From: Chaenocephalus aceratus
Taxonomy: Eukaryota; Chordata; Actinopteri; Perciformes; Channichthyidae
Length of the DNA: 64,000 nucleotides
Direction of reading: 5' to 3'
NCBI GenBank assembly: GCA_023974075.1
Contig: CM043799.1
Span: forward strand, 7,341,250 to 7,405,249
Below are positions 11,760 to 64,000 of this stretch, piece by piece. The notes under the pieces were generated by a model that was not told the origin of the DNA, made no database searches, and saw only the letters and a list, made by a program, of their open reading frames with translations. Position numbers and translations under genes: made by a program. Positions within the stretch are counted from its first letter, which is position 1; every line of letters begins with the position of its first letter.

Positions 11760-13460
11760 GCTTCACACTTTATATTTTTTTCTAATGTCATGCAAAAGCA
11801 TTCCAAGTGGTCCATATCTGTGACGTTTTCCACGCCAGTAAGTCCACTCAATGACATCCAAATGATCTTTTAACGAACTCTGTGTCCGATTTCCTCTACA
11901 GTGTAAGTTTCCAGATAGTTGTCTTGCAAATACCCCCAACATCTCTCTACGTTCTGTGTATGTGCACCTGTAACAGGGTCAACAAAAGATCGTGATGGTT
12001 GACAGTCAGGTGATTATAACCTTCGTCCTGAATCCGCTGTAAGACCTCCATCCATCTGAAATGACTGAGCTTCCGTTCTTAATGTGCTTCTTTATGAGAG
12101 GCATACGATGTCTGGCTGAGCGGCGACGCACGATCTTGAGAATGGGTCTTCTCCTGTCATTTCTGATTCCAAGCATTCCGAACACCCAGGAACTCCAGTT
12201 GCTCGCCCGTCCTCTGTTGTACTGAATGAAAATGACAAGAGTATTATGGAGCAGTGCATGTTTACAAATATTCAACTGTCCTGAGGTGCAGGAATAACGT
12301 GACATTTCCCTTTATGGCATAATTGAATTGCATATCTTATTCCAAAACGCAACCGTCATTTCTCATAGATAAGGATACTGACACCAATTTTACAAAAGGC
12401 TACTACAGTATTTAGTTTTGACACAAAAATTCCTTCTCTTTGTTCCATGGCGAGGAAGAATTTGTATATTAATGCAACCTACTGTATGTCCACATAGAGC
12501 TGTGGACAATAATGCACAACCACCTGAGCCACACACAGTGGGATGGGGTAAAAGAGGTTTACGTACACTTGGATTGACTACATTAAATTGGCTCTGTCTG
12601 CAGTTTCTTAAATGAAGAATGTTTTAAAATATTTTGCGTAGAGCCTTACCATTGTATATTGCTAATGGAAACTGTATGCATTTGTTTTCAATTTCACACA
12701 GCAATGAACTTTCGAGCATGTTCAGAACAGTTGTTAAAATGCTTTACAATACACTCTACTACTTTATGTATAATTAGCAATAATAGTCTATGATAAATGT
12801 TAACTTTCTGTGTATTAAAAGTATGTATAGTGTCTCTACATTAAGTAGCTCTGTTAAGGACAGGCTTATGCAAGATCATAGGAAGAAACTGTTTTATTAT
12901 GTATTGTTTGGACATCAAGGTAACAATCTTAAAGTGTTTGCATAGTTTACACACCTTCTTTTATGGCCAAATTTGCATTCATCGATCATAACAACTTCTC
13001 TTCGTCTTCCAATGGTTCTGCTGGCCTCTTCTTCTCACTCTTCTCATGGCAGATTTACAAACACTCCGCAGCTTGTCTGTGAGCTTAGTCAGAGTTGCAG
13101 AGCTACGAGTAATTCCTTCCTGCAGCATGTCCACTTGTCGCATTCGAAGGCCTTGGGAAAATCTGTAAACAATCCAGTTAGTTAGGAGGGGAGGTTTAAA
13201 ACCAATGTTGAAGTGGTCATGGGTGTACCGTACATTTCCATATATACACATTTCATGAATGATTTAGAACCACCACCTGTAGATGAAATGCATCCATGTT
13301 TGCAGTCGCACATGGGAATTCTCAAACATGGAGCCACTTCGGATGGACCTTGAATATGTTTTCCCTTTGTGACATGAATCCCGGCAACATCCTGATGATT
13401 AAACAAATTGGTTGAATAGAATTCTGATAAATTAAGTCTAGATGTAAGGTGTTGATACAT
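11760..13460 (-). pseudogene. Merlin (IS1595/IS1016-like) transposase remnant
   Basis: Read on the minus strand, the pieces align in order with Merlin DDE transposases. A cysteine-rich N-terminal fragment lies at about 13260-13330. Next comes the first catalytic aspartate region, VVMIDECKFGHKRR, at about 12945-13010. The block GRASNWSSWVFGMLGIRNDRRRP...ISDGWRSYSG (about 12020-12215) carries the second aspartate. Then RSFVDPVTGAHTQNVERCWG (about 11900-11980) carries the glutamate region, and LKDHLDVIEWTYWRGKRHRYG is the tail. The pieces are in different frames, some perhaps because of introns and some because of frameshifts, so the gene is probably dead. Merlin transposases cut and paste their own element. 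Confidence 0.8.
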
Positions 13461-16164: not shown

Positions 16165-16984
16165 TTCCTCACACAATCAGTGCACGCAGCTCTGCTGATC
16201 TCTCCTCCCTGGCTGCAGGCTGATAACAGACAGTTGGGATCGCGCGAAATTCTCTCTGCAGACCCATTCTCACGCGTTATCAACCTTCTTCTTCTCAATA
16301 TCAAGCCACACTTATTGTTTTTACTTCGGCTGAGACTTTGTGTGTGCTCAGGGTGAGTTTGGCTGTGTTTCGTGTGTATCGCTAAACAAGGAAATCACAC
16401 CTCCACGGAGCTTAGCGCGATTCACAACGCCCGACTGGTCCCGTCCAATCGGAGCACACTGGGCTCACAGGGAGGGGGGGGCAAGAGCTGCAACGAGCCG
16501 TTTAGTGGAGAGAGGTGAATACACATACTTTACAGAGATGCTGTATGCGGAACCAATGTGAGTTTGGAAAATTGCACAGGATAAATCTATTCTAGTAGAC
16601 CTCAACAATGGAATTATGATCAGTGGAAATGGCCATGCCATGTGACCTTTAAGTGGAGAGTGAAAACACAAGGTAATTTTAATACTACTGTTTATATAAG
16701 TAAACACCTTATCTCCCCAAGGCAATTTCCCATCCAATAGGTGTGCTATAACCCTTTCTCCTGTCTGTTACTCCGTCTTTCAGCACAAGAACAGAGGGGG
16801 TTTCAATGGAGCCTGAATACCTGCACTGAGACCCTCACCCTGCACCCTGAGTCTCAACTCTGTGTTTTTCAAGCCTTTCCCTGTTTTTTTTGTATTAAAC
16901 AAAACATTAAGCTTTCCCAATGGTGTGGTTTTCGTTTTGTGAAAAAGTGCAAATGCAGTGTTTGTATATAATTACATCACATAT

Positions 16985-37207: not shown

Positions 37208-38885
37208 TAATCCGTGTATCTACCGTCCAATTGTTTTTCTTTATTAAACACATAAACGGAAGAGCGTCTGAGAGGCCTTTTGCTTTTTGCTGTTCACCTT
37301 ACTAACTGGTCAAATGTTCCTTGGAACGAGGGGCGGGGCGAAACTCACGGAAGTGATTTCAAAACAAAAGCATTCGTTGCTAAAATCACACTTTGAATCA
37401 CTACATTATCCTGCTGAAGGACCGGTGATTATTATAAACAAGGGGAATTTAGCGATCACAACGAAAACAGCCAAGACAGATATTGAGCCCAGAAAATGGA
37501 TGTTATTAAGGGCTGTAAATATAATAGGCCTGTGTCTAAAATGGACAACATTGTTAGGAGATTTAAACTATACAGCGATTCTGCACTGCGGTCACTCAGC
37601 CGTCTCTCGCGTTTGTTTTTTTCAAATCAGCTGCTCTTCATTCCTGCTATATTTGACGAGTGACACAAATATTTGTTACCACAAGTTCTTAAAGGTCACA
37701 TGTCATGGTCCTTTCTACTGACCATAATACCATTGTTGAGGGATATTACAATAGAAAAATACTGTGCAATTTTCCAAACTCACATTGTTTCGCATACAGC
37801 ATCTCTGTAAACTACGTGTATTCACTCTCTCCACTAAACGGCTCGTTGGAGCTCTTGCCCCCCTCCCTGTGAGCCCAGTGTGCTCCGATTGACCAATCCA
37901 CAGACTTCCTCACACACACACGCAGCTCAGCTGATGTCTCTTCCGGGCTGCAGGCTGATAACAGACAGTTGCGATCGCGGAGAAATTCTCTCTGCAGACC
38001 CATTCTCACAGCGTTTATCAACCTTTTTCTTCTCAATATCAAGCCACACTTATTGTTGTTACTTCGGCTGAGACTGTGTGTGCTCAGGGTGATTCACAAC
38101 GTCCGATTGTTTCACGTTGTGAATCGCGCTGAGCTCCGTGGAGGTGTGATTTCCTTGTTTAGCGATACACAGCCAAATTCACCCTGAGCACACACAAAGT
38201 CTCAGCCGAAGTAAAAACAATAAGTGTGGCTTGATATTGAGAAGAAGAAGGTTGATAAACGCTGTGAGAATGGGTCTGCAGAGAGAATTTCGCCGCGATC
38301 CCAACTGTCTGTTATCAGCAGCAGCCCGGAGGAGACATCAGCAGAGCTGCGTGTGTGTGAGGAAGTCCGTGGATTGGTCAATTTGGACCAATCAGCGGGG
38401 GCTTAACGTAACGGCTCCACCGATTGGTCCATTTCGTTCCGGTTACAACATGACGTCCTGATGTACCCGGAAGAATCAAATGGATGATGACGTTTCACCA
38501 ACGAGGCGTTTTGGAGAGTTCTTCTCTGTGTTAGAGTTTTACTCGCGACAGGGTGTACTTTGAGGGTTTTGACTCTGCACACCGTGTACATGCATAAAAA
38601 CCTTCATAACACACAAGGGGACGGGTAATAACCGGAAAAGCATGTCTTTGATGAATGATAAAAAATATAATTTTACCATTAGTTCTTAATGAAATTGATA
38701 CTGTTTGACTTTGTATTAGTTAGCCTACTACTTACAATACATTGAAGTACTTTTACTGTGTATTTTTGAGAAATCCTCTGTCAAAGTCCCCTGCTGAGAA
38801 CAACATCAAGCCACTTCTGCTACGTTTGATGAGGGAATTCTTTTGTATTGCCATTAGTTCTTCGTGAGATTGATCCTATTGGACT
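37208..38885 (+). repeat. Dispersed repeat 'R', interrupted by MITE copy B
   Basis: 37208-37688 matches 50818-51298 almost base for base. 38648-38885 matches about 51430-51665. Between them sits the MITE at 37689-38647. Compared with the uninterrupted copy, about 130 bases of R are missing at the right junction. Confidence 0.85.
37689..38647. mobile_element. TTAA-type MITE copy B with internal fold-back
   Basis: The left end is ttaaaggtcacatgtcatgg after TTAA; the right end aaccggaaaagcatgt is the inverse of copy A's left end. Internally, about 37889-38102 is inversely repeated at about 38114-38382 (for instance gaccaatccacagacttcct against its inverse), with an extra block of about 70 bases in the right arm. 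A transcript could fold into a hairpin of more than 200 bp. The right TTAA is lost. Confidence 0.75.
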
Positions 38886-46614: not shown

Positions 46615-48201
46615 TAGACAAAATCAGAACATCCAAAAAAGGAAGCCAGCTAACTCATTATCTGAGCCCAGACATCCAGAACGAGTTTATTGAATTGTGT
46701 GGTGGAAAGGTTTTAAAAACCATTCTGACGGAAAGGGAGGATGCCATATACTATGGAATCATTTGTGATGCAACGCCTGACATTTCCCACACCGAGCAAA
46801 ATGTTGTGCTCATAAGATATGTACATTATAATGAAGACACAGGCGAATGGGAGATCACTGAAAGATTTATTGAATTCAAAGATTTCAACGGAAAAAACAG
46901 GATGTGAAATAGCAGGCATGATGGAGTGTGCTTCTGGATCTAGGGATAGACATTAGTGATTGCAGGGGGCAAGGGTATGATAATGGGGCGAATATGTCAG
47001 GGGAAATCAAGGGAGTCCAAGCCCAAATACTGAAAAAGAATAATCTTGCTACTTTCTCACCGTGTGCCTCCCACACGTTGAATCTGGTAGGCGCGCATGC
47101 TGCAGAATCGAGCCCTGAAGTGTCTTTTTTGGTTACATTAACCGCCTCTACACATTTGTAAGTGCCAGTCCATCTCGTTGGTCTATATACAAAAAGAACA
47201 CAGGTCTGACACTCGCTGGAGTGCGAGAATTGATGCTGTGAAACCTGTGGCAAAGCACCTACCTGGTGTCATTGAAGCCCTTGCTACCATACTGAGCTCA
47301 TGCAGTCTCACAGGTGAGGCCAGATCTGAAGCTGTTGGTCTGAGGAACTACCTCATGTCATTTGATGCCATTGTCCTTCTCACCATTTGGGTGAAAGTAT
47401 TGCAATCTATTGATGACAGAAATGTGATACTCCAGTCAGGGAACATCTCAATAGAGGTGGAGGCAGGTAATGTTGCTGCACTAAGAGATGAGATTCAGAC
47501 TCTCAGAAATGGATGGGATGCTATTCTGTCTGAGGCATCAATGGTAGGTTCCACCTCATTTCAAAAAAGAACTTTGCCGTGAGAGGAGGAGGAAGAAGAG
47601 GTTTCATGATGAAACCGCTGAAGGAACAGGTCAGGAGGATAGGCCAGAAACAACATTCCGTAACACTGTGTTTTTCACTGCCATGGACCAGATCATAAGT
47701 GACTTGGACACTCGGTTTCAAACAACAGCAAATATTGTTGAAGAATTTGCTGCCATACTTAAAATTGGGAAGTTGAGTGACAGTGTCATGGCCTCTGTGT
47801 GTCAGCCTCTGAGGGAGAATTACTCACAGGATCTCACAGATCAGTTTGAGAGTGAGATAAGGCATCTCAATAAAATATGTTCTGCCACTTTCCCCCCTGA
47901 TTGTAGCTCTCTTGATCTACTGAATGCAATATACAAGATGGAACTCCAGAGCATTTTTGGAGACGTTTGCATTGCCCTCAGAATTTTCTTGACACTCCCA
48001 GTTACCGTAGCTGGTGGTGAAAGATCATTTAGTAAGTTGAAACTTATCAAGAGCTATTTAAGATCTACCATGTCGCAAGAGAGGTTGAACAGCCTTGCAA
48101 TGTTATCGATTGAAAGCAAGCTGGCTCTGTCACTTGATTTCAAAGAGCTCGTAAAAGATTTTGCCACCAAGAAGGTCCGGCGATTGGCGTTCGGGATTTA
48201 G

Positions 48202-50345: not shown

Positions 50346-50817
50346 ACATGCATGGCAATTAACCCATGTTTGCCCACTATTTAAATTGACTTTGGTTAGT
50401 TAATACAAATATTGATATTATTATATAGCATATAATTGATGCAGTCTTTCTGAACACTTTTTTTTTTAAATACTGCAAATGAAGAATCATTTAAATGGTC
50501 TGCACAGATAGACAGATAGTGCCCTAACTTACAGCAGTTGAAAATATTTTTGAAAGGATAAATTCTTCATGGCTTCAATGGCTCTAGATAAAGGGTGTTT
50601 TATGGTTGCTTGTATTATCCTCAGATAGTGGTTTGTTTAAATAACTACTGACATTTTATAAATATTGCAAAAAAGGGCTCCAAAAAGGCATATATAACCT
50701 GGCACCACAAAATTCAGAGTTTATCAAGTACAATTCTGGGCCATTGATTGTGTCATTTCTCCAAACTTCATACAGTAAAAATGCCTGTTTTGAAGCATTA
50801 AGTACTGGATTGTGAGG

Positions 50818-52135: not shown

Positions 52136-52439
52136 AATTTGCTTTCCTTTTTCTCTTCTCTTAACTGAATAGCCCTGTCTTTAAGTATAATACAATGTAA
52201 AGTCCTTTTCCTGCACCATTTGAAGGCTTCAAAACAGGCATTTTTCGTGTATGTGTTTGGAGAAATGACACAATCAATGGCCCAGCATTGTACTTTATAA
52301 ACTCTGAATCTTGTGGTGCTTGAAGAAATACACACTGGCTAAGCCGGCCAGGTTATATATATCTTTTTTGGAGCCCTTTTTTGAAATATTTATTAAAATG
52401 TGGGCAGACACAACTGAGTTGTTCTGTGTGTGAAGTAAC

Positions 52440-52626
52440 CTCAAGTCACTCGTTTGTCAAGACAAAAAAGGGCAAGACTAGGCTGAGAGCAGAGGCTATA
52501 CCCACCATCTTCGTGCATCGCCCTGTGGTCAAAAAGAGAAGGGCCCCTGCACCACGATTCACCCCGGGACCTGTATCTACAAAGCCCATAGCTCATGATC
52601 ACAGCGATAGTGTGAAAGGTGACACA
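52440..52626 (+). pseudogene. THAP-domain C-terminal exon
   Basis: The frame reads KTRLRAEAIPTIFVHRPVVK KRRAPAPRF and continues to a GTATAATAAG donor at about 52627. AEAIPTIF corresponds to the AVPTIF box that closes THAP zinc fingers. Upstream cysteine/histidine spacing is only partly matched. It is probably a remnant of a THAP-bearing transposase gene (P-element or Kolobok type) rather than a host gene. Confidence 0.5.
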
Positions 52627-52728
52627 GGTATAATAAGTATGAACTCTTAGTAACAAAAGTAATATTTCTTATTTTTAAGTGGTATAATATTTTAAATGTT
52701 CGAACATTTACATACATAAAACACCCTT

Positions 52729-53077
52729 TGTAAGGGTTTAGCCAGCATGCTGATGTTTTTGTTATTGTTCCTGTTCTCATTGTTGTTTCTCTCATTTCAG
52801 TCTCAGCTTTCCTGCCCTTGATTGAACTCCACCTGCTTCCCTTCCCTAATTAGCCTCACCTGTGCCCCATTATCATCTCTCCCTCTGTCTATTTAGTCTG
52901 CATCCACAGTCCCTTCAGTGCCAGTTCGTCTTAGTTATTCCTAGCGTTCCAGCAGTGTTTTTCTAGTATCTGATTCCCGTGTACCGAACCTTGGATATAA
53001 AGACCTTTTTGCATCCTAATCCTCTGTCTCCGAGTCGTGCTATTGAGTCCTCCACTTGTGTTCATTCAGTCGTTACA
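52729..53077 (+). repeat. Left LTR, 349 bp
   Basis: Begins TGTAAGGGTTTAGCC and ends GTCGTTACA. It matches the right LTR base for base as far as I can see. Confidence 0.97.
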
Positions 53078-53096
53078 GTACGAACTGGCCAGAACC

Positions 53097-53415
53097 ATGG
53101 ACTCAGCCGACTCTGAGAATTTGCGGTCTGCTATTCGATCCCAGGGGGCTCGTCTTAACCTACAAGATGAACAACTTACCGCTGTCTGCCAGGGAGTAAG
53201 AGAATTGTCGGAGCGGCATGAGGGTTTCCAGTCATCCATCGGCAGCAAGGTTTGCCAGCTGGCAGATCAGATCCAGCAGCTGGTGGCACATCTCAATCCA
53301 CAACGCTCTGCTACTCCGCTTCCAGCGTCGGATCCGGCTACAGCTCCCGGTCCTGTTCCTGCCACCGTGCCGACACCGCTGCCTGCCATACTTCCCTCCT
53401 CTCCTGCCATCCTGG
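53097..53415 (+). pseudogene. gag: gypsy gag N-terminal fragment
   Basis: The ATG at 53097, 19 bases after the left LTR, opens MDSADSENLRSAIRSQGARL, a helical, probably coiled-coil segment (about residues 10-65), followed by a Pro/Ala-rich linker. The capsid and zinc-knuckle parts are missing. The frame differs from that of the integrase, so the deletion junction near 53390-53415 does not make an in-frame fusion. Confidence 0.85.
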
Positions 53416-54682
53416 TGTTCGCCGCACCATGTTCTTCATTAAGCAGCGGTTCTGGTGGCCCTCCATGGAGAGGTCGGTCAAGGAGTACGTGGCAGCCTGT
53501 TCAGTTTGTGCCCGGAACAAGACTTCCCGTCAGCCCCCTTCTGGTCTTCTGCGCCCGCTCCCAGTGCCACATCGCCCCTGGTCTGACATCTCGTTGGATT
53601 TCGTCACAGGGTTGCCGCCGTCTCAAGGTAACACCACTATTTTGACAATTGTGGATAGATTTTCGAAGATGGTCCACTTTGTCCCGCTGCCTAAGTTGCC
53701 ATCTGCCAGAGAGACAGCAGAGGCAGTGTTGTTCCATGTTTTCCGTCTCCATGGTTTCCCTAGGGATGTTGTGTCAGACCGGGGCCCACAGTTTACCTCA
53801 CAGTTTTGGAAGGCTTTCTGCTCACTCATCGGTGCCACAGTCAGCCTCTCTTCTGGACATCATCCGCAGTCTAACGGCCAGACGGAGCGGCTGAATCAGG
53901 CGCTTGAGACCTGTCTACGCTGCCTGGTGTCTCAGAACCCTGCCACGTGGAGCACGCATCTGATTTGGATGGAGTACGCACACAACACTTTGCCTAGTTC
54001 TGCTACTGGTCTCTCACCTTTTCAGTGTGCCAATGGATACCAACCACCATTGTTCCCCGACCTGGAGAAGGAGGTCAGTGTTCCATCTGCACATGCCCTC
54101 ATCCGCCGATGTCATCGCACTTGGAGCCGGGCCCGCCAGGTGCTACTACGGAGTTCAGCCCGTTATAAAAGGATGGCCGATCGCCGACGTATCTCTGCTC
54201 CTGCCTACCAACCTGGACAAAGTGTGTGGCTCTCTACTCGAGACCTGCCCCTTCGAGTGGAGTCTCGCAAACTGGCTCCTCGTTTTGTGGGTCCCTTCCC
54301 GGTATCTAAGGTCATAAATCCTGTGGCAGTACGGCTTCGACTACCTCGATCCTTGAGGGCCTATCCTACATTCCATGTGTCACGCATCAAACCAGTTAAA
54401 GTGAGTCCACTGGTCCCCACCTCCAGACCCCCTCCACCCCCCCGGTTTATTGATGGTGGACCTGTATATACTGTGAAACGCCTCTTGGCAGTTCGACCTA
54501 GAGGCCGGGGACGTCAGTACCTGGTTGACTGGGAGGGCTACGGTCCTGAGGAGAGGTCATGGGTCTCCACCAGTAATGTCAGTAAGGACCTCATCCAAGA
54601 CTTTCAACGTCAACATCCTGAACAACCTGGGACGTCAGGTGCCGTCCCTAGAGGGGGGGGGGGGGGTACTGTAAGGGTTTAG
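53403..54682 (+). pseudogene. pol: gypsy integrase with chromodomain (intact frame, no own start)
   Basis: The open frame begins at the zinc-binding region ([20 protein letters not shown], then CxxC in CSVCARNKT). The catalytic core follows, with [22 protein letters not shown] and [11 protein letters not shown], giving all three DDE residues. The C-terminal domain is next, and then a chromodomain ([34 protein letters not shown]), which defines chromoviruses and in intact elements targets modified chromatin. The upstream polyprotein is deleted and frames do not fuse, so normal expression is unlikely although the domain itself is undamaged. Confidence 0.93.
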
Positions 54683-55018
54683 CCAGCATGCTGATGTTTT
54701 TGTTATTGTTCCTGTTCTCATTGTTGTTTCTCTCATTTCAGTCTCAGCTTTCCTGCCCTTGATTGAACTCCACCTGCTTCCCTTCCCTAATTAGCCTCAC
54801 CTGTGCCCCATTATCATCTCTCCCTCTGTCTATTTAGTCTGCATCCACAGTCCCTTCAGTGCCAGTTCGTCTTAGTTATTCCTAGCGTTCCAGCAGTGTT
54901 TTTCTAGTATCTGATTCCCGTGTACCGAACCTTGGATATAAAGACCTTTTTGCATCCTAATCCTCTGTCTCCGAGTCGTGCTATTGAGTCCTCCACTTGT
55001 GTTCATTCAGTCGTTACA
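54670..55018 (+). repeat. Right LTR, 349 bp
   Basis: Same sequence as the left LTR, directly after a G-rich polypurine run, followed by the CCCTT target duplication. Confidence 0.97.
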
Positions 55019-55143
55019 CCCTTTACTAGAGCCATTGAAGCCCATGAAGAATGTATCCTTTCACAAATCTTTTCAACGTAAGTTAAAATTTAAAATATTC
55101 TTCATTTGCAGTATTTTTTTTAAAAAGTGTTCAGAAAGACTGC

Positions 55144-55147
<4 letters not shown>

Positions 55148-55201
<54 letters not shown>
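55148..55201. repeat. (TA)n microsatellite
   Basis: About 54 bases of TA repeat. It abuts the CAGGGTTTCCGC terminus at 55202. Confidence 0.97.
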
Positions 55202-55204
<3 letters not shown>

Positions 55205-55300
55205 GGTTTCCGCTAGGATTTTTTCTCGCCGGTCAAATGTCCGGGCAGAATTTATTTTACCGGACAAATTTGAAACTTACCGGTCATGTTTCAATAATAA
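55202..55300. other. Putative left terminus of a large DNA transposon
   Basis: A sharp boundary occurs where the TA array gives way to CAGGGTTTCCGCTAGG. Three subterminal motifs of the form CCGG(T/A)CA follow at about 55229, 55260 and 55280, as often seen near transposase-binding ends. The opposite end is not in the window, so this is inference from a one-sided terminus upstream of the two convergent genes. Confidence 0.4.
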
Positions 55301-55329
55301 TAATAATAAGAGTTGTGTAGCAGAGTTTC

Positions 55330-55965
55330 CGTTAGCAGGTAATCACCGGACTATGAGCAGATATGCTTCAGTTTAAAACTCAGTTCACGGGCTCATTTTT
55401 GTATTGCTTCAGTTTATAATCGTAACAGATCGAAAAATTCAGATTCATTTTTCAATAAATTATTCCACAAACAACATAATTATTACATTCAAACAAACTA
55501 CTTGTAGTAGATAACGTACATTATTCAAAAGTTTAAATTAACTTTGAATAATAACACGGGAGAAACGTATGGAAGCAAACAAGAGACAGAAGTATTCGAA
55601 TTTTATTAGACACCGAATTTATAGCATGAGAAATAATTACTTTGAAAATCATGAATCTGAATTTGTTTTCCTCCGAATTTATCTATGTGAAATAAAAATG
55701 TAAAAATTCAAGTTAAAAACATTTGAATGTTCAAATTCAGATCCCAACAATTCAAGTGAAAAAAATTCGACGTCAAATATTTCGGTGTTTAAAATTCGAT
55801 GTCAAAAAATTCGGTGTGTCAAATTCGATGTCAAAAATTGCGATGCAGCATCATCCGGGCTACTCATACAGGATAAGCAATAGAGCCCTAATGCAATCAA
55901 ACCGACTTCTGGCCTATCAGAGCACGGCTTTGTCAGTCATGTGATCACAACAGCCCGGGAGAAAA
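55330..55965. other. Upstream region of the HECT gene
   Basis: AT-rich sequence with repeated 'aattcg'/'gatgtcaaa' motifs (about 55600-55840), becoming more GC-rich just before the start codon. I could not pick a TATA box or a start site with confidence. Confidence 0.35.
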
Positions 55966-58900
55966 ATGACGGAGAACAGCGGAGCTCGGGTAAGTAGTCA
56001 GTTTGTGTTCTTTATTTTACGAGCAGTGAGGGCTCGACAGCATTTGTATCTTACATTAGCTAGCTAAATGAGTGATGTTGCCTTGTGCCTTTCTGTCAGT
56101 AAGCTCCGTAATTATCATTCAAGTGAATAGCGACGTTACCGTGTCCTCGTGTGTGTGTTTGGGTGGGGGATGATCCCGCCTGATGGTTTTCAAAGTAACG
56201 TTACATAACGTCTCACTTCCGTTAGATAAGTCAAATTGACTAGTTAAAGGGGGTGCAAGAACATCCATAAGTTGTTAGAAGTAATCGTGGTGAATGAAGT
56301 TTTCAGATAATTTACTTCAGTAAAATTACTAGTGCTACATTGTACAACATCTCTCTTACAAAAGCCCTGCATTTAAACATGTTAATTCAAGTTCAGTAAA
56401 CTAATTCAGTTAATTAATAATAGTTTAGTAATATTTTCATTCAGCGTGTGATGTTTTTCTGTGCCATATTTGTGTTAACAGGATAGTAATGCTGAGATTC
56501 TAAGATCAGTCAGACACTTGATGTCCTTGATAAGCCCGTCTGAAAGAGGAGGGATTGCAGCTAGTGGCAGTGTCCCTTGCCCCAGTCAAGAAATAAGGTT
56601 AAGTGTTAAAAATACACTTATAATTACGTACACATAGATTATTTTTGTTAACTTAACAATTACAGGCTTTGTTTACTGATTATTTTTGGAAACAATCCTG
56701 CAGGGAACAGAGGTCAGGAGGCCAGAATGAGAGGCCAGGAGGCCAGAATGAGAGGCCAGGAGGCCAGAATGAGAGGCCAGGAGGCCAGAATGAGAGGCCA
56801 GGAGGCCAGAATGAGAGGCCAGGAGGCCAGAATGAGAGGCCAGGAGGCCAGAATGAGAGGCCAGGAGGCCAGAATGAGAGGCCAGGCCATCAGCCACCAA
56901 GACCTTCTCTTCAAATGGAAATGACAAGGTTCATAATTAGATTCTGCACATTAACTTGATCAGATAAAAACTGATAGTATTAGTAATTATATATTTATGT
57001 AGATCACATTTTAACCAAGGCTGGGCAATATATTGATTTATCGACATCTTGATTTGAGTCTAGATATCATAGTAATAATAAGTGTCTTGTCCAGGTTTTA
57101 AAGGGTGCATTACAGTTAAATTATGTACTTTCTGAACTCTCCAGATTGTTCTAGCTGTTCTATTATTACCCTCATAGTCATTATATCTACATTACTGATG
57201 ATTATTCATCAAACTTCTCATTGTGTAAATATTTTGTGAACGCACCAATAGTCCACACTACAATCTCGTCGCAATATCTTTATGAAGGTATTAGGTAAAA
57301 AATATTGTGATATTTGATGTTCTATGTACACATACTAATTTATTTATTTATTATTTTCCACAGATCCTTTCCAGGTATGTTCACTAAGGGAAGAGGGAAG
57401 AGGCGTTTTCCTGCAGCGACTCTTGTTCCTGCCAAGAGACCCAAACCCATGGAAGTTGCTTTCCACCTGTTACCAAAGACATATGAAAAAACTCCAACAG
57501 GGCCAGAGCAACTAGTGCACTTGCAGGCGGGGCTAGGCCGCAGGACTGCTAACTTGGATGAGAGCACAACACACAATGAGGTAAGCAGATGCGATAGATG
57601 AGTTATAGTTGTTGCTATAGTTGTACGTAACATATGAATAATTCTGTTAATTAGTGCTACACCACTCCTATTTGAGATGTGGCAACTAAGACTGCCAACT
57701 ATTTAGTGCAATTGACTGGAAAAAACCTACTCTGGCAGTGAGCCATCTCCTCTGAGTTTACACTGGCATGACGATGAAAAGATAATGACTGCATCTTAAA
57801 TATTGGGTGACCTATGCCTTTAACATATTCTGCTTGAATGTATTTGGAAAGTTTTTGGCCTGGGCTTTAATTCTCCAACCAAGCTAACTCTTTTGAAATT
57901 ATTATGCTTTAATGCATTAAAGCAAGACTGACATGCGCGTACAATGAGCTTTCATCTCAGCAGATTTCAGAAGGAATTCATGTTTATTAATTGTGAACGG
58001 TTGGCTTTTTTAACTAAAACTGTTTTGTGTTACTGTTTTTCTTACAGTTATGTCATACACTCAAAGTTGTATTTCCAAAACTGGAGAAAATAACTGGTGG
58101 TTGGCTGCTTTACAAACCAGCAGGTTTGCAAAACTTTGTGATCATTTTTGAAATGGTGTCAGCTTTTATTTTGACTAAATGCTCACCAAATAGAGCTGTG
58201 AATTGCTCTTTTCATTTTTGTTTAATGTGTTTTGGCATGCCATTCTCTGTTATCAACTGAATGCATGTAGGTCATGTCTAACTGTAAACTTTTTAAATAA
58301 AAATAAACAAGTTAATTTATCCATCAAGCCATTAAAGGATTTGTTTCCCATTGAAATGTTCTCTATAGGTGGATGGGGTACACGGACACTCTCCCTTGTG
58401 GAACCTGATGATACTGGCTACACAGGCAAGATCATAAAGGCTGCAAACCGGGGGGGTAGATCTACTTTTTTCATAGCTCCAATGCAAGAAGAACTCGACA
58501 CAACTCCACTGCTACTAACGGATGAAGCATTCAGTAGCATGCATAAAGCAACGTGCCAGAAGTGTGGAGCAGCCATTCCACTGCAGCTCCTGACAGAACA
58601 CATCAAGTCTTGCAACATCATTGATGTTGACAGTGATGAAAGCCTGGCTGTTGTGGAGGATAGTCGTGAGCAGGGTAAGATAACATGTACAAATTAATTC
58701 ATTTCCATTATCATTACACGCAGATGCCCTAAAATCACAATTCATGGTAAGGACACATGGCTTGTTGTAAAATACAGTTATGACATAATGCAGTGGTTCT
58801 TGCTGACCTCTGATTTTTGTTCATCTTTGCCAACTTAAATGTCACAGCACCAGAGCAGCAGCCCTGTCCTCTGTGCATGGAAATGTATCAAGCTGACTCC

Positions 58901-61900
58901 ATTGAGGCACATGCTGCTTCATGTGGGGAAAGGTATATTGTATATACTTTTTTCAATAACCAACAGATGTAAAACATTAAATCAGTCTAACAAATAGAAT
59001 ATAAGTGTAGAAAAAGTATGTTGTGAATGTTGGCAGTGCAGGAAATGAGGTGTTGGATAGGATTACTGTCATTGAAGAACAAGCAGCAATGCCTGGACCA
59101 TCTGGAAGTAGTGCAGCAGTTACAGAAGGTAGGTCCTAATCAGGGTTGCTGTGGGGCAAGAATGTTAGGGAGGGTAAACTGTGGTGGTGCAGTAAAGAGT
59201 AGCATATCCAACATGGCATAGTCTACATCTTATTGGTTTAAATTAAATACTTTTCTTAAATTGTATCCTTGCTAAGGAAAGGTCAAAAGGTACATTCTGA
59301 TAGATAGGGAGCTGTAACTGATGAACTGTCTACTGAATGTATTTCTCAGAGCTGGCTTTCTTTACAGGCAGGTCTGACGTGAAAGCTGAACTGATAACAT
59401 TTTTATTTTGTCTCTTACTAGAGTGGCTCACTGTTCAGGATCCTACCAGGGCCATATCTCAGTTTCGAGATGATGTTCTGAGCATTCATGAATCGAAGAA
59501 TCCCTTACTTCTCAGCATGGATATTAGAAGCAGCCCTGCGGAACAGGACGCTGCACTAATCTGCTTCTATAAGAAACCCAACGTTGAATGGGGACGACCC
59601 TTAAAATGCAGACTTGAAGGTAGCTTCAATTACATGTCATAGTAGTCTAGGAAAACTTAAACCTATTGCTTTTGCCTTTTACTATAGACCATTTCAGTTG
59701 TAAACTTTTAACATTCTAAATGTGTCCCAGTTTATTTCCAGTTGCCGTGTATGTGAATGTCATCAGTTGACAGGAGGTAAACATCGACATAAGCTGTTGC
59801 CAAGCAATGCAATTCCGTTTAAATGGTCTATATCAAACCCTGAATTGTGTTACAGGTGATGCAGCCTTTGGAGAGGGTGTTAGTCGCTTTTTCTTCTCAA
59901 CCTGCATGGACAAGCTGAACTCTGGGTTTTGCATCAACTTTGGTATGTAGAATGCAGCTTTGTGTAAGATGAATTGTAAATAACTATTTACAGTTGCTTT
60001 GCAGGAGCATGTCTTGTGTTTAAAATGTTTTTTAAATATAACCTACATTTCTGTTGTTTTTTTATATTTGTGTTCACCTAACCATAAAAGTTCTAAAAGT
60101 CATAATAAATATGTTATGCCTACAATGGCAAAACAATTGTAATCTTAATAAAAATGTTAAAATAAATACAACTACCCAATGGTAGTGTTGGATGTAGTAC
60201 TTAATTTAACTTTGTTTCAATGTAACATCTCTTATACAGCAAACACTGACGGAACACGGCTCTTTGATGGAGAGCCCTCAGCCTCTCACTTTCTCGTTGA
60301 AAGTGACATGTTCATCATGGCCGGGAGAGTGGTGGGACACTCCTTCGTGCATGGAGGACCTTGCCTGTCGGGGCTCAGCCCTGCTGTTGTTCATGTCCTG
60401 CTTGGAGGAAGTCCTGAAACTGCCACTGTCACACTAGAGGACTGTCCAGACCTAGACATCCGGGAAACAATCAGGCTTGTATGTTTTCAATCCAACCCCA
60501 TTATTTCTTCACTTATTTATACACTGAAGCAAGAAAGTCTCCACCCTTTTAGCTATTTTTTTCTGTGTGCTGTATTATATTGTGGAAAAAAAGCTAAAGG
60601 GGTGGTGAATTTCTACACCCATCGTGTAGTGTCCGACGTCCGTCACACATTTTTTCATTCTATTTCCTCTTCCCTCTGTGTCTTTAAGCTTGAAGGGGAA
60701 TCCGAAATCTCTGATGAGGGTAAAAGAAGTGTCCGGGACTTGGCCTTCGCCTCGGACCTCCCTTGCCTTACCGGAAATAACCGCAGATGGCTTTTTGAGA
60801 AGATGTTGATCCATGCTGTGCGTGAAATGTTATAATATATTGACAATGCAGAACTTTATCCCAAAGCAATTTCTGTGGATGAGATAAAAAGTGTTCCACC
60901 TTCTGTCTGTTATTGTCAATAACAGGTCATTGGACGTGTCATAAGACAAATTAAGCAGCTCAGACGTGGTCTTAAGGAGACGCCAATGTGGGCCATGCTG
61001 AGTCAACGCCCTGACACAGTGGCCCTGCTATTTCCACAAGAGGGAGCAGTGGATTATAGCCCTGCGGTACATTTGTCCAATTTTATCTTTTTGTATATAA
61101 TATATATTCATATCATGTAATATTTTTAAATCCAAGCCTTTCTTGAATGCTATTATATGACAGAGGTTTCATATCTTTATCCAGTATCAGTCATTGTGCC
61201 TGTAATCAATCTTTTAGGATTAGTTCCTAGTTTTGTTTAGGTTTGTCAAACATGGCTCGCTTGAGGAAAAATGAATCCCATTTTAAGACAAATTTCTCAC
61301 ACTAGTGTCCGGTAACCATGTTGTTATTTTATATGGCTGTCAATGTAGGTCATTCTTCAGCGCATCACCTGGCCTCGTGAGGACGATGATGAGGACGATG
61401 ACTGTTCAGTTGACACAAAATGCCGTGTATCAGGATATCTTCGCCGCTTCATTGAAAATGGTATGTTTACAGTTAGAAATAATGCCAACATGCTATTGAA
61501 GTAAAGTATGATGATATTAAGTATAAGACCTAATATGTTACATTCCTGATCTTACAAACCTGTGTGCGCTCCACTCCGACACAACTGTCCTACACATGCA
61601 GGTGTGCAAAGACACTCAAGTAAAAAAAGCTACTTTACAACTATTTCTTACAGTACAGATAACAAATGTGATGCTTTAATTGACTACTAAAAATTATTTG
61701 AATTTCCTAACTTACTTTTCTTTTTTGTAGCAACCATTCATTTAAACAACTTTTGGTTAATCCACAGCGTCACCTGATGTAATGGCCAATCTGGTGAAAT
61801 TCTGGACCGGGTGGGAGATTCTGCCACGGAATAATCTGTCCATTGAGGTGGTCAACGGCAGCTTCCCCACTGCCTCAACCTGTTACGAGACCCTGCGCAT

Positions 61901-61988
61901 CCCAGGGCATTACAAGGACTATGCATCTTTTGAAAATGTAATGCTGGCTTGTATTGGAACTTGTCAAACAGGATTTGGTCTTGTATAA
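55966..61988 (+). CDS. UBZ-HECT E3 ubiquitin ligase-like protein (G2E3-like), 15 exons, 755 aa
   Basis: Exons I read: 55966-55989, 56482-56597, 56704-56928, 57364-57580, 58048-58123, 58369-58674, 58848-58932, 59037-59128, 59422-59619, 59856-59942, 60240-60478, 60689-60817, 60926-61066, 61349-61460, 61768-61988. All introns are GT...AG and all junctions keep phase, giving 2,268 coding bases. The start MTENSGAR ends at a GTAAGT donor. Residues 52-107 are eight 7-residue repeats. Two C-x2-C-x11-H-x3-C fingers (282-301, 328-347) look like UBZ ubiquitin-binding zinc fingers. From about 380 the sequence resembles a HECT domain, ending FPTASTCYETLRIPGHYKDY with likely catalytic Cys721 and terminal GFGLV. 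HECT ligases accept ubiquitin on this cysteine and pass it to substrates. Teleost genomes hold many related G2E3-like genes; the substrate is unknown. No disabling mutation is seen. It may be transposon cargo rather than a host gene. Confidence 0.82.
56711..56886 (+). repeat. Coding minisatellite in exon 3 (21 bp x 8)
   Basis: Eight nearly identical 21-base units encode the heptad GGQNERP in frame. Because the unit is a multiple of three, copy-number change would not break the protein. The antisense and other forward frames also stay open, which is a by-product of the repeat. Confidence 0.95.
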
Positions 61989-62055
61989 TGTGTTGGTGGA
62001 AGGCAGAGGTGTTCATTGACTCCAGTGTTAAGTATTTTTCTGCTGTGGAAATACT

Positions 62056-62061
62056 AAATAA
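62056..62061 (+). terminator. Polyadenylation signal of the HECT gene
   Basis: AATAAA lies 68 bases after the stop codon at 61988, in a suitable position to end the plus-strand transcript. Confidence 0.6.
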
Positions 62062-62492
62062 AGTCCTCCCTTTCTTCTGTTCAGAATCAGCCTGTTGTAT
62101 ATTGGACAGCCCAGTATATGTATTAGTGATGCACAGTATGGATGTTTTTTCAGCAGATTACAGATCACTACCTGCTTCTCATGGCAAATACTGATAACTT
62201 CATAACCTGTAGTTTACACACACCTGAGGGTCTACGGATCAGCTAAAGGACAACAACCAATCAGAGCTGAGGGTAGTCAGAAGCACCTGTTAATCGTGCT
62301 GATTAGCTCCAAGAAACTAATCAAATAGGCAGCAGTGATCAAATATCAAACGTGACCTTTTTTAGATTGTCTTTACCATTTTATGAATTGACCAATTGTA
62401 TCTTTAATATGTTATGTGTCTGATCAAATCTGACATCACTATTGTTCGCATAACAACAAACAAAAGAACATTTGTCATTCTTCAAATGTTCA
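62062..62492. other. Gap between convergent genes
   Basis: Noncoding AT-rich sequence separating the 3' ends of the HECT and integrase-like genes. No further gene is seen. Confidence 0.5.
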
Positions 62493-62498
62493 TTTATT
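62493..62498 (-). terminator. Polyadenylation signal of the integrase-like gene
   Basis: On the minus strand AATAAA lies about 137 bases after the stop codon at 62635. Confidence 0.55.
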
Positions 62499-62634
62499 AT
62501 TTTTCCTTGACAATTTGAAGATTCCAAAAGCAGAACAGTTGTCTGCCATAAAACATAATACATCTGTAAAATAACAAGGAAACAAAGGTGAAGTGGATGT
62601 TTGTGCCACATTTGGATACATTAGAGAAAAACAC

Positions 62635-63718
62635 CTAAGTCTCTTTCTCAGTCATCAGATGCTCACAAAATTGAACAGCAGCAATGTAGATATCAGAGCC
62701 AAAGGACTGGGATGCAGCTCGTGGGTCAACAGCTTCTCTTAAAGCAGCCATTTGTCCATCAGTCAGTGGGCTCTCTGTGTCTGGGACAATGACACTAGAG
62801 TGGCCATCAGGAGCAAATCCACTGTTCTCCCACTCAATCTGAGGAATATCCACACCCTAAAAATAACAGAAATAGAAAGCCTCATTTATTTGCGGTATTA
62901 ATTATCTTGATAGACAGCAGCAGTAAGGTGGGCACTTGTGGCTTTTGAAATCTGTATGCTCCTACTCAATTATCTTTCTGTTTTCACATACTGTAACTCC
63001 TTTTCTAGGAACATAAGCCTTAAACCACTGCCAATGTTGTTTAGTAAATGTTCATGGCTCTTATTCTGACCTACACTTTTGTAAGTCACTCAGCTAAATA
63101 TGAATTGTTCCCACATGTAATGGTAAGATAAATTACATTTTCTCAGCAGGAAACCTTTCTTATGCATTTGACCCATCCAAACGTGTGCCATACAGTATAA
63201 CTGCTATAGTTAAAATATTTTCACCGCTTTACCTTGCTGTCAGATAGCCCTTTCTGACGGGGAACTGAGGCTTTATAGCCACCTGCTCTCTTTAAAGGGT
63301 GCTCTGGGTTGAAAATACAGGGGAAGTTTCAATGGAGTTGGTAGGTGTTTGCAAGAGCATGGATAGCGGTTTCAGTTTTTTAGTTGCTGAGGGATCAATA
63401 CTATTGAAAGCACTGAAGTTGTAAAAATTGGACAACGTTACCTCCATGTTATCAGAAAGTGGAATTGGGTGATGGATTCGTCCCAGCTCCCACAGCTGAT
63501 TTGGGGTCATATGGCCTTCTGTTCTTATAGGATGATTTGCCCAGCCACTGCGGAATGTGTCCAGGTCATCTTGTAGCCGTGGCAGGAACACATAATGGCA
63601 ACAGAAGAGGTGTGTAGCATTGCCAATGTTGAGGAAACCCTCTTCTTCGAGGTAGTGTAGAGCATCATAGTAGATGACTGTAACAGCTGTCCACATGTCT
63701 CTCCATAGCCTCTCTATC
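62635..63718 (-). CDS. rve/DDE integrase-like protein, C-terminal two exons (partial)
   Basis: Read on the minus strand, an exon at 63718-63442 follows an AG acceptor and reads RIERLWRDMWTAVTVIYYDA, then HYVFLPRLQDDLDTF and GHMTPNQLWELG, ending at a GTAACG donor. The last exon, 62856-62635, continues GVDIPQIEWENSGFAPDGHS and ends HLMTEKET. The join is in phase. RIERLWRD is the segment carrying the catalytic glutamate in the family of metazoan integrase-core proteins with an rve fold; the aspartates would be encoded upstream, beyond the window. Such proteins are thought to be transposase-derived. No stop or frameshift interrupts the visible part. It faces the HECT gene tail to tail, 646 bases between stop codons. 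The transposon superfamily (for example IS3EU- or Ginger-like) cannot be settled from this fragment. Confidence 0.72.
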
Positions 63719-64000
63719 CTGGACAATTGCAAGTTTACCAGAACATTTTTAAGTTAAAGGACAGGGAATTGCAATATCTGGATTTGTGGCAGATTTGACA
63801 TGGAATGATTAAGTATTTATAATAAACAACTGATAATGTAAGACCTCAGCAGTTTCTTTTGTTGAGAAAAGGTTTCCATCAACAACAAATGCACACAGAT
63901 AGATTTTCTTTTAATGCAATCCAATGATCTGCTGTTCAATGTGTGTATTCATTTATCTACCATTTCTTGACTCATTGTCAGTCCAAAACAATAGATGTTT
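63719..64000. other. Presumed intron of the integrase-like gene
   Basis: AT-rich noncoding sequence upstream (on the minus strand) of the visible acceptor; no further exon is recognisable before the window ends. Confidence 0.45.

Follow-up and report, generated by a model that had tools for sequence, protein, structure and literature searches.

The right-hand part of the 64,000 bp stretch of Chaenocephalus aceratus DNA analyzed here (contig CM043799.1, bp 7,341,250–7,405,249; "the window") carries, between bp 55202 and its right edge at bp 64000, a gene for a HECT-type ubiquitin ligase and, tail to tail with it on the − strand, the 3′-terminal part of an integrase-like gene. Both lie to the right of a sharp sequence boundary against an AT array, and together they may be part of one large DNA transposon, a candidate whose parts are described below and listed with their coordinates in Table 1.

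The ligase gene and its product

The HECT gene (bp 55966–61988, + strand) is divided into 15 exons; all 14 introns have GT..AG borders, and the spliced frame runs uninterrupted through 755 codons, with the stop codon ending at bp 61988. An earlier sequence-only reading of this locus had described an intact 15-exon HECT ligase gene, and this description holds, as does its statement that each of the two genes has a polyadenylation signal of its own. The exons are 50% GC and the introns 33%. Where exon 6 meets exon 7 the exact splice is ambiguous, but each of the four donors tried there preserves the frame. Exon 3 contains 8.5 copies of an in-frame 21 bp tandem repeat that encodes NERPGGQ (bp 56709–56886, + strand; 99% matches by Tandem Repeats Finder, TRF), and the copy number of this repeat may differ among alleles.

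Residues 482–754 of the predicted protein match the Pfam HECT domain (PF00632; profile positions 25–305 of 306, E = 3.9e-12); the score of 46.9 bits exceeds the cut-off of 23.9. Cysteine 721 lies within the sequence ASTCY, which we take to be the site of the catalytic cysteine in HECT ligases, and the C-terminal motif reads ASTCYETLRIPGHY; with a HECT domain and a C-terminal cysteine both present, the product is classed from its sequence as a putative HECT E3 ubiquitin ligase. N-terminal to the HECT domain are two C-x2-C-x11-H-x3-C patterns; among 5000 shuffles of the protein (in a splice variant four residues longer) none contained two such patterns and one contained at least one. The locus had been said to encode a UBZ-HECT ligase. 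The HECT part of that name stands, and the fingers are called UBZ-like here, not proven UBZ, because Pfam zf_UBZ scores them at 15 bits in the frame of the exon and at 13.4 bits in the spliced product, both below its cut-off of 25.6. A comparison of the ligase with solved structures gave no match with an E of 1 or less. The protein shares its HECT domain with a C-terminal cysteine motif with the G2E3-like HECT ligases. G2E3 carries PHD/RING fingers before its HECT domain, whereas the ligase here has the two UBZ-like fingers, and Pfam gave no PHD or RING match in it at E up to 0.1.

The integrase-like neighbor

The window contains no more of the integrase-like gene than its final two coding exons. 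The open reading frame at bp 63292–63753 matches the integrase core profile rva_4 (PF24764; E = 3.8e-27, profile positions 103–185 of 194), and the two visible exons are open and not decayed; a comparison of the integrase exon with solved structures gave a single match at chance level (E = 0.9). The sequence-only reading had called this gene uninterrupted, which cannot be claimed since its upstream exons lie past bp 64000.

The left boundary and its paralogous counterpart

A perfect (AT)27 array ends at bp 55201 and CAGGGTTTCCGCTAGG starts at bp 55202, and in this respect the abrupt boundary against a TA array that had been proposed is confirmed. The window itself contains a diverged, inverted paralog of the left flank, in which bp 55016–55183 correspond to bp 50598–50403 (73% identity over 200 columns) and, in a second block, bp 52223–52401 correspond to bp 50799–50651 (77% over 180 columns). 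At the position of the array the paralog reads CATCAATTATATGCTATATAATAATATCAATATTTG, with no regular array and no CAGGGTTTCC; it is also without CAGGGTTTCCGC, and other sequence follows its AT-rich stretch. When this continuation of the paralog was compared with bp 55202–64000, the best alignment score was 35, no better than that of shuffled sequences (maximum of 50 shuffles, 35). Homology of the flank to the paralog thus ends at the array, which indicates an insertion, or some other breakage of the sequence, at bp 55202; the boundary looks genuine and of the insertion type. The inverted, diverged duplicate (bp 50403–50799 and 52223–55183) can be viewed as an empty-site counterpart of the putative transposon on its left side and also of a long terminal repeat (LTR) element at bp 52729–55018, which is absent from the paralog. 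If so, the paralog sequence at 50.4 kb (AATATTTGTATTAACTAACC) predicts what should be found beyond the right end of the element.

Terminal repeats and motif clusters

The first 16 bases of the putative terminus have a direct match at bp 55321 with a score of 22, which was reached by none of 100 random sequences with matched dinucleotide composition. The direct repeat is not above chance at greater length; with 25 bases the same match was equaled by 24 of 100 random sequences, and with 40 bases another place is the best match (29 of 100). Downstream of the terminus, four of the window's 11 CCGG(T/A)CA sites fall within 60 bp, and the first 90 bp contain four CCGG sequences where 0.2 are expected (Poisson p = 6e-5, for a region chosen after the fact; a count of five is attained in a GC-rich stretch at 23.6 kb).

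An inverse copy of the terminus was sought by local alignment against bp 55242–64000; out of 100 random sequences, 17 attained the best score obtained with 16 terminal bases, 21 that with 25 bases, and 50 that with 40 bases. The terminal 14-mer, allowing up to three mismatches, has one inverse match in bp 55202–64000, with three mismatches and within the integrase coding sequence (bp 63629–63642). The lack of an inverse terminus above chance up to bp 64000 means that an element starting at bp 55202 runs past the window, or has lost its other end, or is of a kind without such inverted ends. A short separate element ending upstream of the HECT gene was considered and rejected, as it has no inverse terminus above chance.

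CpG pattern

The ratio of observed to expected CpG is 1.27 in bp 55202–55965, and all five of the 200-base bins in bp 55201–56200 have at least 0.9 of the expected CpG, whereas 31 of the 37 bins in bp 56401–63800 have less than 0.5. The ratio is 0.37 in both the exons and the introns of the ligase gene and about 0.2 in the integrase-like gene; that of bp 1–52728 is 0.59. A CpG-rich start followed by a depleted body is the trace of an unmethylated promoter in a methylated germline, and the undepleted block (bp 55202–56200), which starts at the boundary, is probably the unmethylated promoter region of the HECT gene.

Table 1 Features of bp 55148–64000 of the window
Feature	Position (bp)	Strand	Basis
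Perfect (AT)27 array, target or target-derived	55148–55201	.	TRF, 100% matches
Left end (putative), read as CAGGGTTTCCGCTAG, or as TATCAGGG... should a TA be part of the element	55202–55216	+	Paralog homology stops in array
Cluster of four CCGG(T/A)CA-type sites that the transposase may bind	55229, 55238 (−), 55260, 55280; span 55229–55286	.	Motif scan
Second terminus copy CAGAGTTTCCGTTAG, 13/15 positions	55321–55335	+	Alignment to terminus
HECT gene exons 1–5	55966–55989, 56482–56597, 56704–56928, 57364–57580, 58048–58123	+	Splice prediction
HECT gene exons 6–10	58369–58674, 58848–58932, 59037–59128, 59422–59619, 59856–59942	+	Splice prediction
HECT gene exons 11–15	60240–60478, 60689–60817, 60926–61066, 61349–61460, 61768–61988	+	Splice prediction
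AATAAA polyadenylation signal, HECT gene	62057–62062	+	Sequence
AATAAA polyadenylation signal, integrase-like gene	62493–62498	−	Sequence
Last coding exon, integrase-like gene, ends TAG	62635–62856	−	Canonical splice sites
Penultimate coding exon, integrase-like gene, IERLWRD motif	63442–63718	−	Canonical splice sites and PF24764

A candidate transposon with a ligase gene as accessory

The insertion-type left boundary, the lack of an inverse terminus above chance before the window edge, and the convergent gene order are the grounds for reading this region as one element. Also in favor of this reading are the terminus-like direct repeat and the clustered motifs, the open ligase frame with its almost full-length HECT domain, and the depletion of CpG in both genes. 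With modest confidence, the DNA from bp 55202 to some point past the window is interpreted as the left part of a large IS3EU/GingerRoot-like cut-and-paste DNA transposon that has the HECT gene as an accessory; it is a candidate, not a demonstrated transposon. The sequence-only reading had proposed a transposon carrying a ligase and a convergent transposase, and its left boundary, open ligase gene, and convergent integrase exons remain, while its uninterrupted transposase gene is not confirmed.

In such an element the integrase-like protein, as the putative single transposase, would recognize the motifs repeated at the terminus and mobilize the entire stretch, and the right end should read as the inverse of CAGGGTTTCCGCTAGGATTT, with a short duplication rich in AT directly behind it. 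The ligase would bind ubiquitin through its two UBZ-like fingers and transfer ubiquitin through Cys721, and its benefit to the element might lie in marking a host factor of silencing or repair, in changing the stability of such a factor, or else in controlling the stability or the level of the transposase. Animal DNA transposons are usually thought to carry little beyond a transposase. It is a tentative idea, about which we are more doubtful than confident, that among animals an IS3EU-like lineage retains, as a permanent accessory gene, a functional HECT ligase with fingers that bind ubiquitin, which could act by marking or destroying a host factor of silencing or repair. If true, such a ligase would be a protein-level counterpart of the TET/JBP genes on fungal transposons, and a ubiquitin ligase retained by a transposon would be a candidate counter-defense gene.

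A number of observations weigh against the transposon interpretation. The window ends at bp 64000, and the right end, the target duplication, and a second copy are all unseen in it; the identification of the PF24764 protein as an IS3EU transposase is putative; and exon 1 of the HECT gene (24 bases) is a prediction without homology support. Repeated CCGG(T/A)CA motifs, as in transposon ends, had been claimed for this region, and although their clustering is upheld, the window total of 11 is not in excess (mean 7.3; at least 11 in 12 of 100 shuffles). The same is true of the six matches to the terminal 14-mer in the window with up to three mismatches (mean 3.35; at least six in 12 of 100 shuffles). 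The terminal CAGGG could, we presume, equally be hAT-like; among ten window frames scanned, a hAT dimerization domain was found only at bp 47548–48201, outside the 55202–64000 stretch. Stretches as depleted in CpG as the ligase gene body also lie around 27.5, 41.5, and 16.5 kb of the window, and a CpG-rich 5′ block with a depleted body fits an old host gene and a long-resident transposon lineage alike.

This CpG pattern is typical of vertebrate host genes, and it counts in favor of the stronger of two alternatives, in which the HECT gene is a host gene, or a member of a multicopy host family, and has a CpG-rich promoter of its own, while the integrase-like exons belong to an independent transposon or remnant and the terminus at bp 55202 is that of a further, unrelated element. 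Such an arrangement seems unlikely, though it deserves serious weight: the promoter-like block starts where the left break lies, the DNA between bp 55202 and the gene has no above-chance inverse terminus that could close off a short element there, and the visible integrase-like exons show no decay, but a gene of 15 exons with an undamaged frame is what would be expected of the host, the window has received many independent insertions, and the right end is not seen in it. The second alternative, that the ligase and integrase-like genes are those of a former transposon, domesticated by the host and now in an immobile element, is quite improbable; the undamaged ligase frame and the CpG depletion would suggest long residence under selection, but the two exons of the integrase-like gene in view are too few to judge its completeness.

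Relationship to known elements

The IS3EU/GingerRoot-like transposon proposed here would resemble known members of that group in that these have an integrase-type DDE transposase, occur in eukaryotes including fish and, in fungi, can carry an accessory gene opposite in orientation to the transposase. Published accounts give TA..TA termini and usually 6 bp duplications for IS3EU elements (PMC10045372), and accessory genes, among them an alpha-kinase gene opposite to the transposase gene, for the TET-bearing fungal elements (PMC12730594). The latter differ from the present candidate in that they bear an alpha-kinase and a TET/JBP dioxygenase where the HECT gene is found here. TATCAGGG does read TA at the left end, but the (AT)27 array provides a TA regardless. 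In zebrafish 17,838 IS3EU copies are listed, in a passage that shows nothing for the three remaining fishes of its table (PMC4746887). The words "HECT" and "ubiquitin" are absent from the main texts of the two IS3EU papers searched for them (PMC12730594; PMC10045372).

The Zisupton transposons of fish offer another parallel, since one of their protein isoforms is reported to include an F-box, which is a type of domain connected with ubiquitin ligases; they differ in that the F-box is inside an isoform of the element's protein, with no separate HECT gene, and in having another transposase (PMC12062965). G2E3 has already appeared as the name of a candidate fish repeat: a sculpin study names it among the blastx matches that 27 of its 122 unclassified candidate repeats produced (PMC5638112). 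A ligase gene carried as cargo could explain this G2E3-like match among amplified fish repeats. HECT cargo inside a defined DNA transposon was not found in the literature searched; it may already be catalogued in Repbase, which is outside that search.

Protein scans of the viral, prokaryote, and plasmid collections were seeded by exact 8-residue words. Scans of viral contigs with the integrase exon, the complete ligase, the last ligase exon, and the terminus DNA yielded no relative; neither did scans of prokaryote genome contigs with the integrase exon and the last ligase exon, of phage records with bp 55202–62000, or of plasmids with the integrase exon. Because these are non-animal collections and the seeding required exact words, the missing relatives say little. 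Rfam matched nothing in the window at its gathering score.

Other mobile DNA in the window

The sequence-only reading had taken everything else in the window to be decaying mobile DNA, which is correct in part. A gypsy-type frame at the left edge (bp 1–987) does look decayed, with a stop codon at bp 987 after which the same frame resumes, whereas the LTR element next to the (AT)27 array is young: its LTRs are identical at 349 of 349 bases and it is flanked by a CCCTT target duplication, both of which point to a recent insertion. The interior of this element is short and still codes for zinc-binding, integrase, and chromodomain parts. An imperfect palindrome at bp 37888–38382, 85% self-complementary over about 500 bases and with related pieces at bp 16165–16429, is probably a foldback or non-autonomous DNA transposon. 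Finally, a fragment of an ISXO2-like (IS1595) transposase domain lies at bp 12006–12311 on the − strand (E = 1.3e-6), and we presume that it probably comes from a Merlin element.

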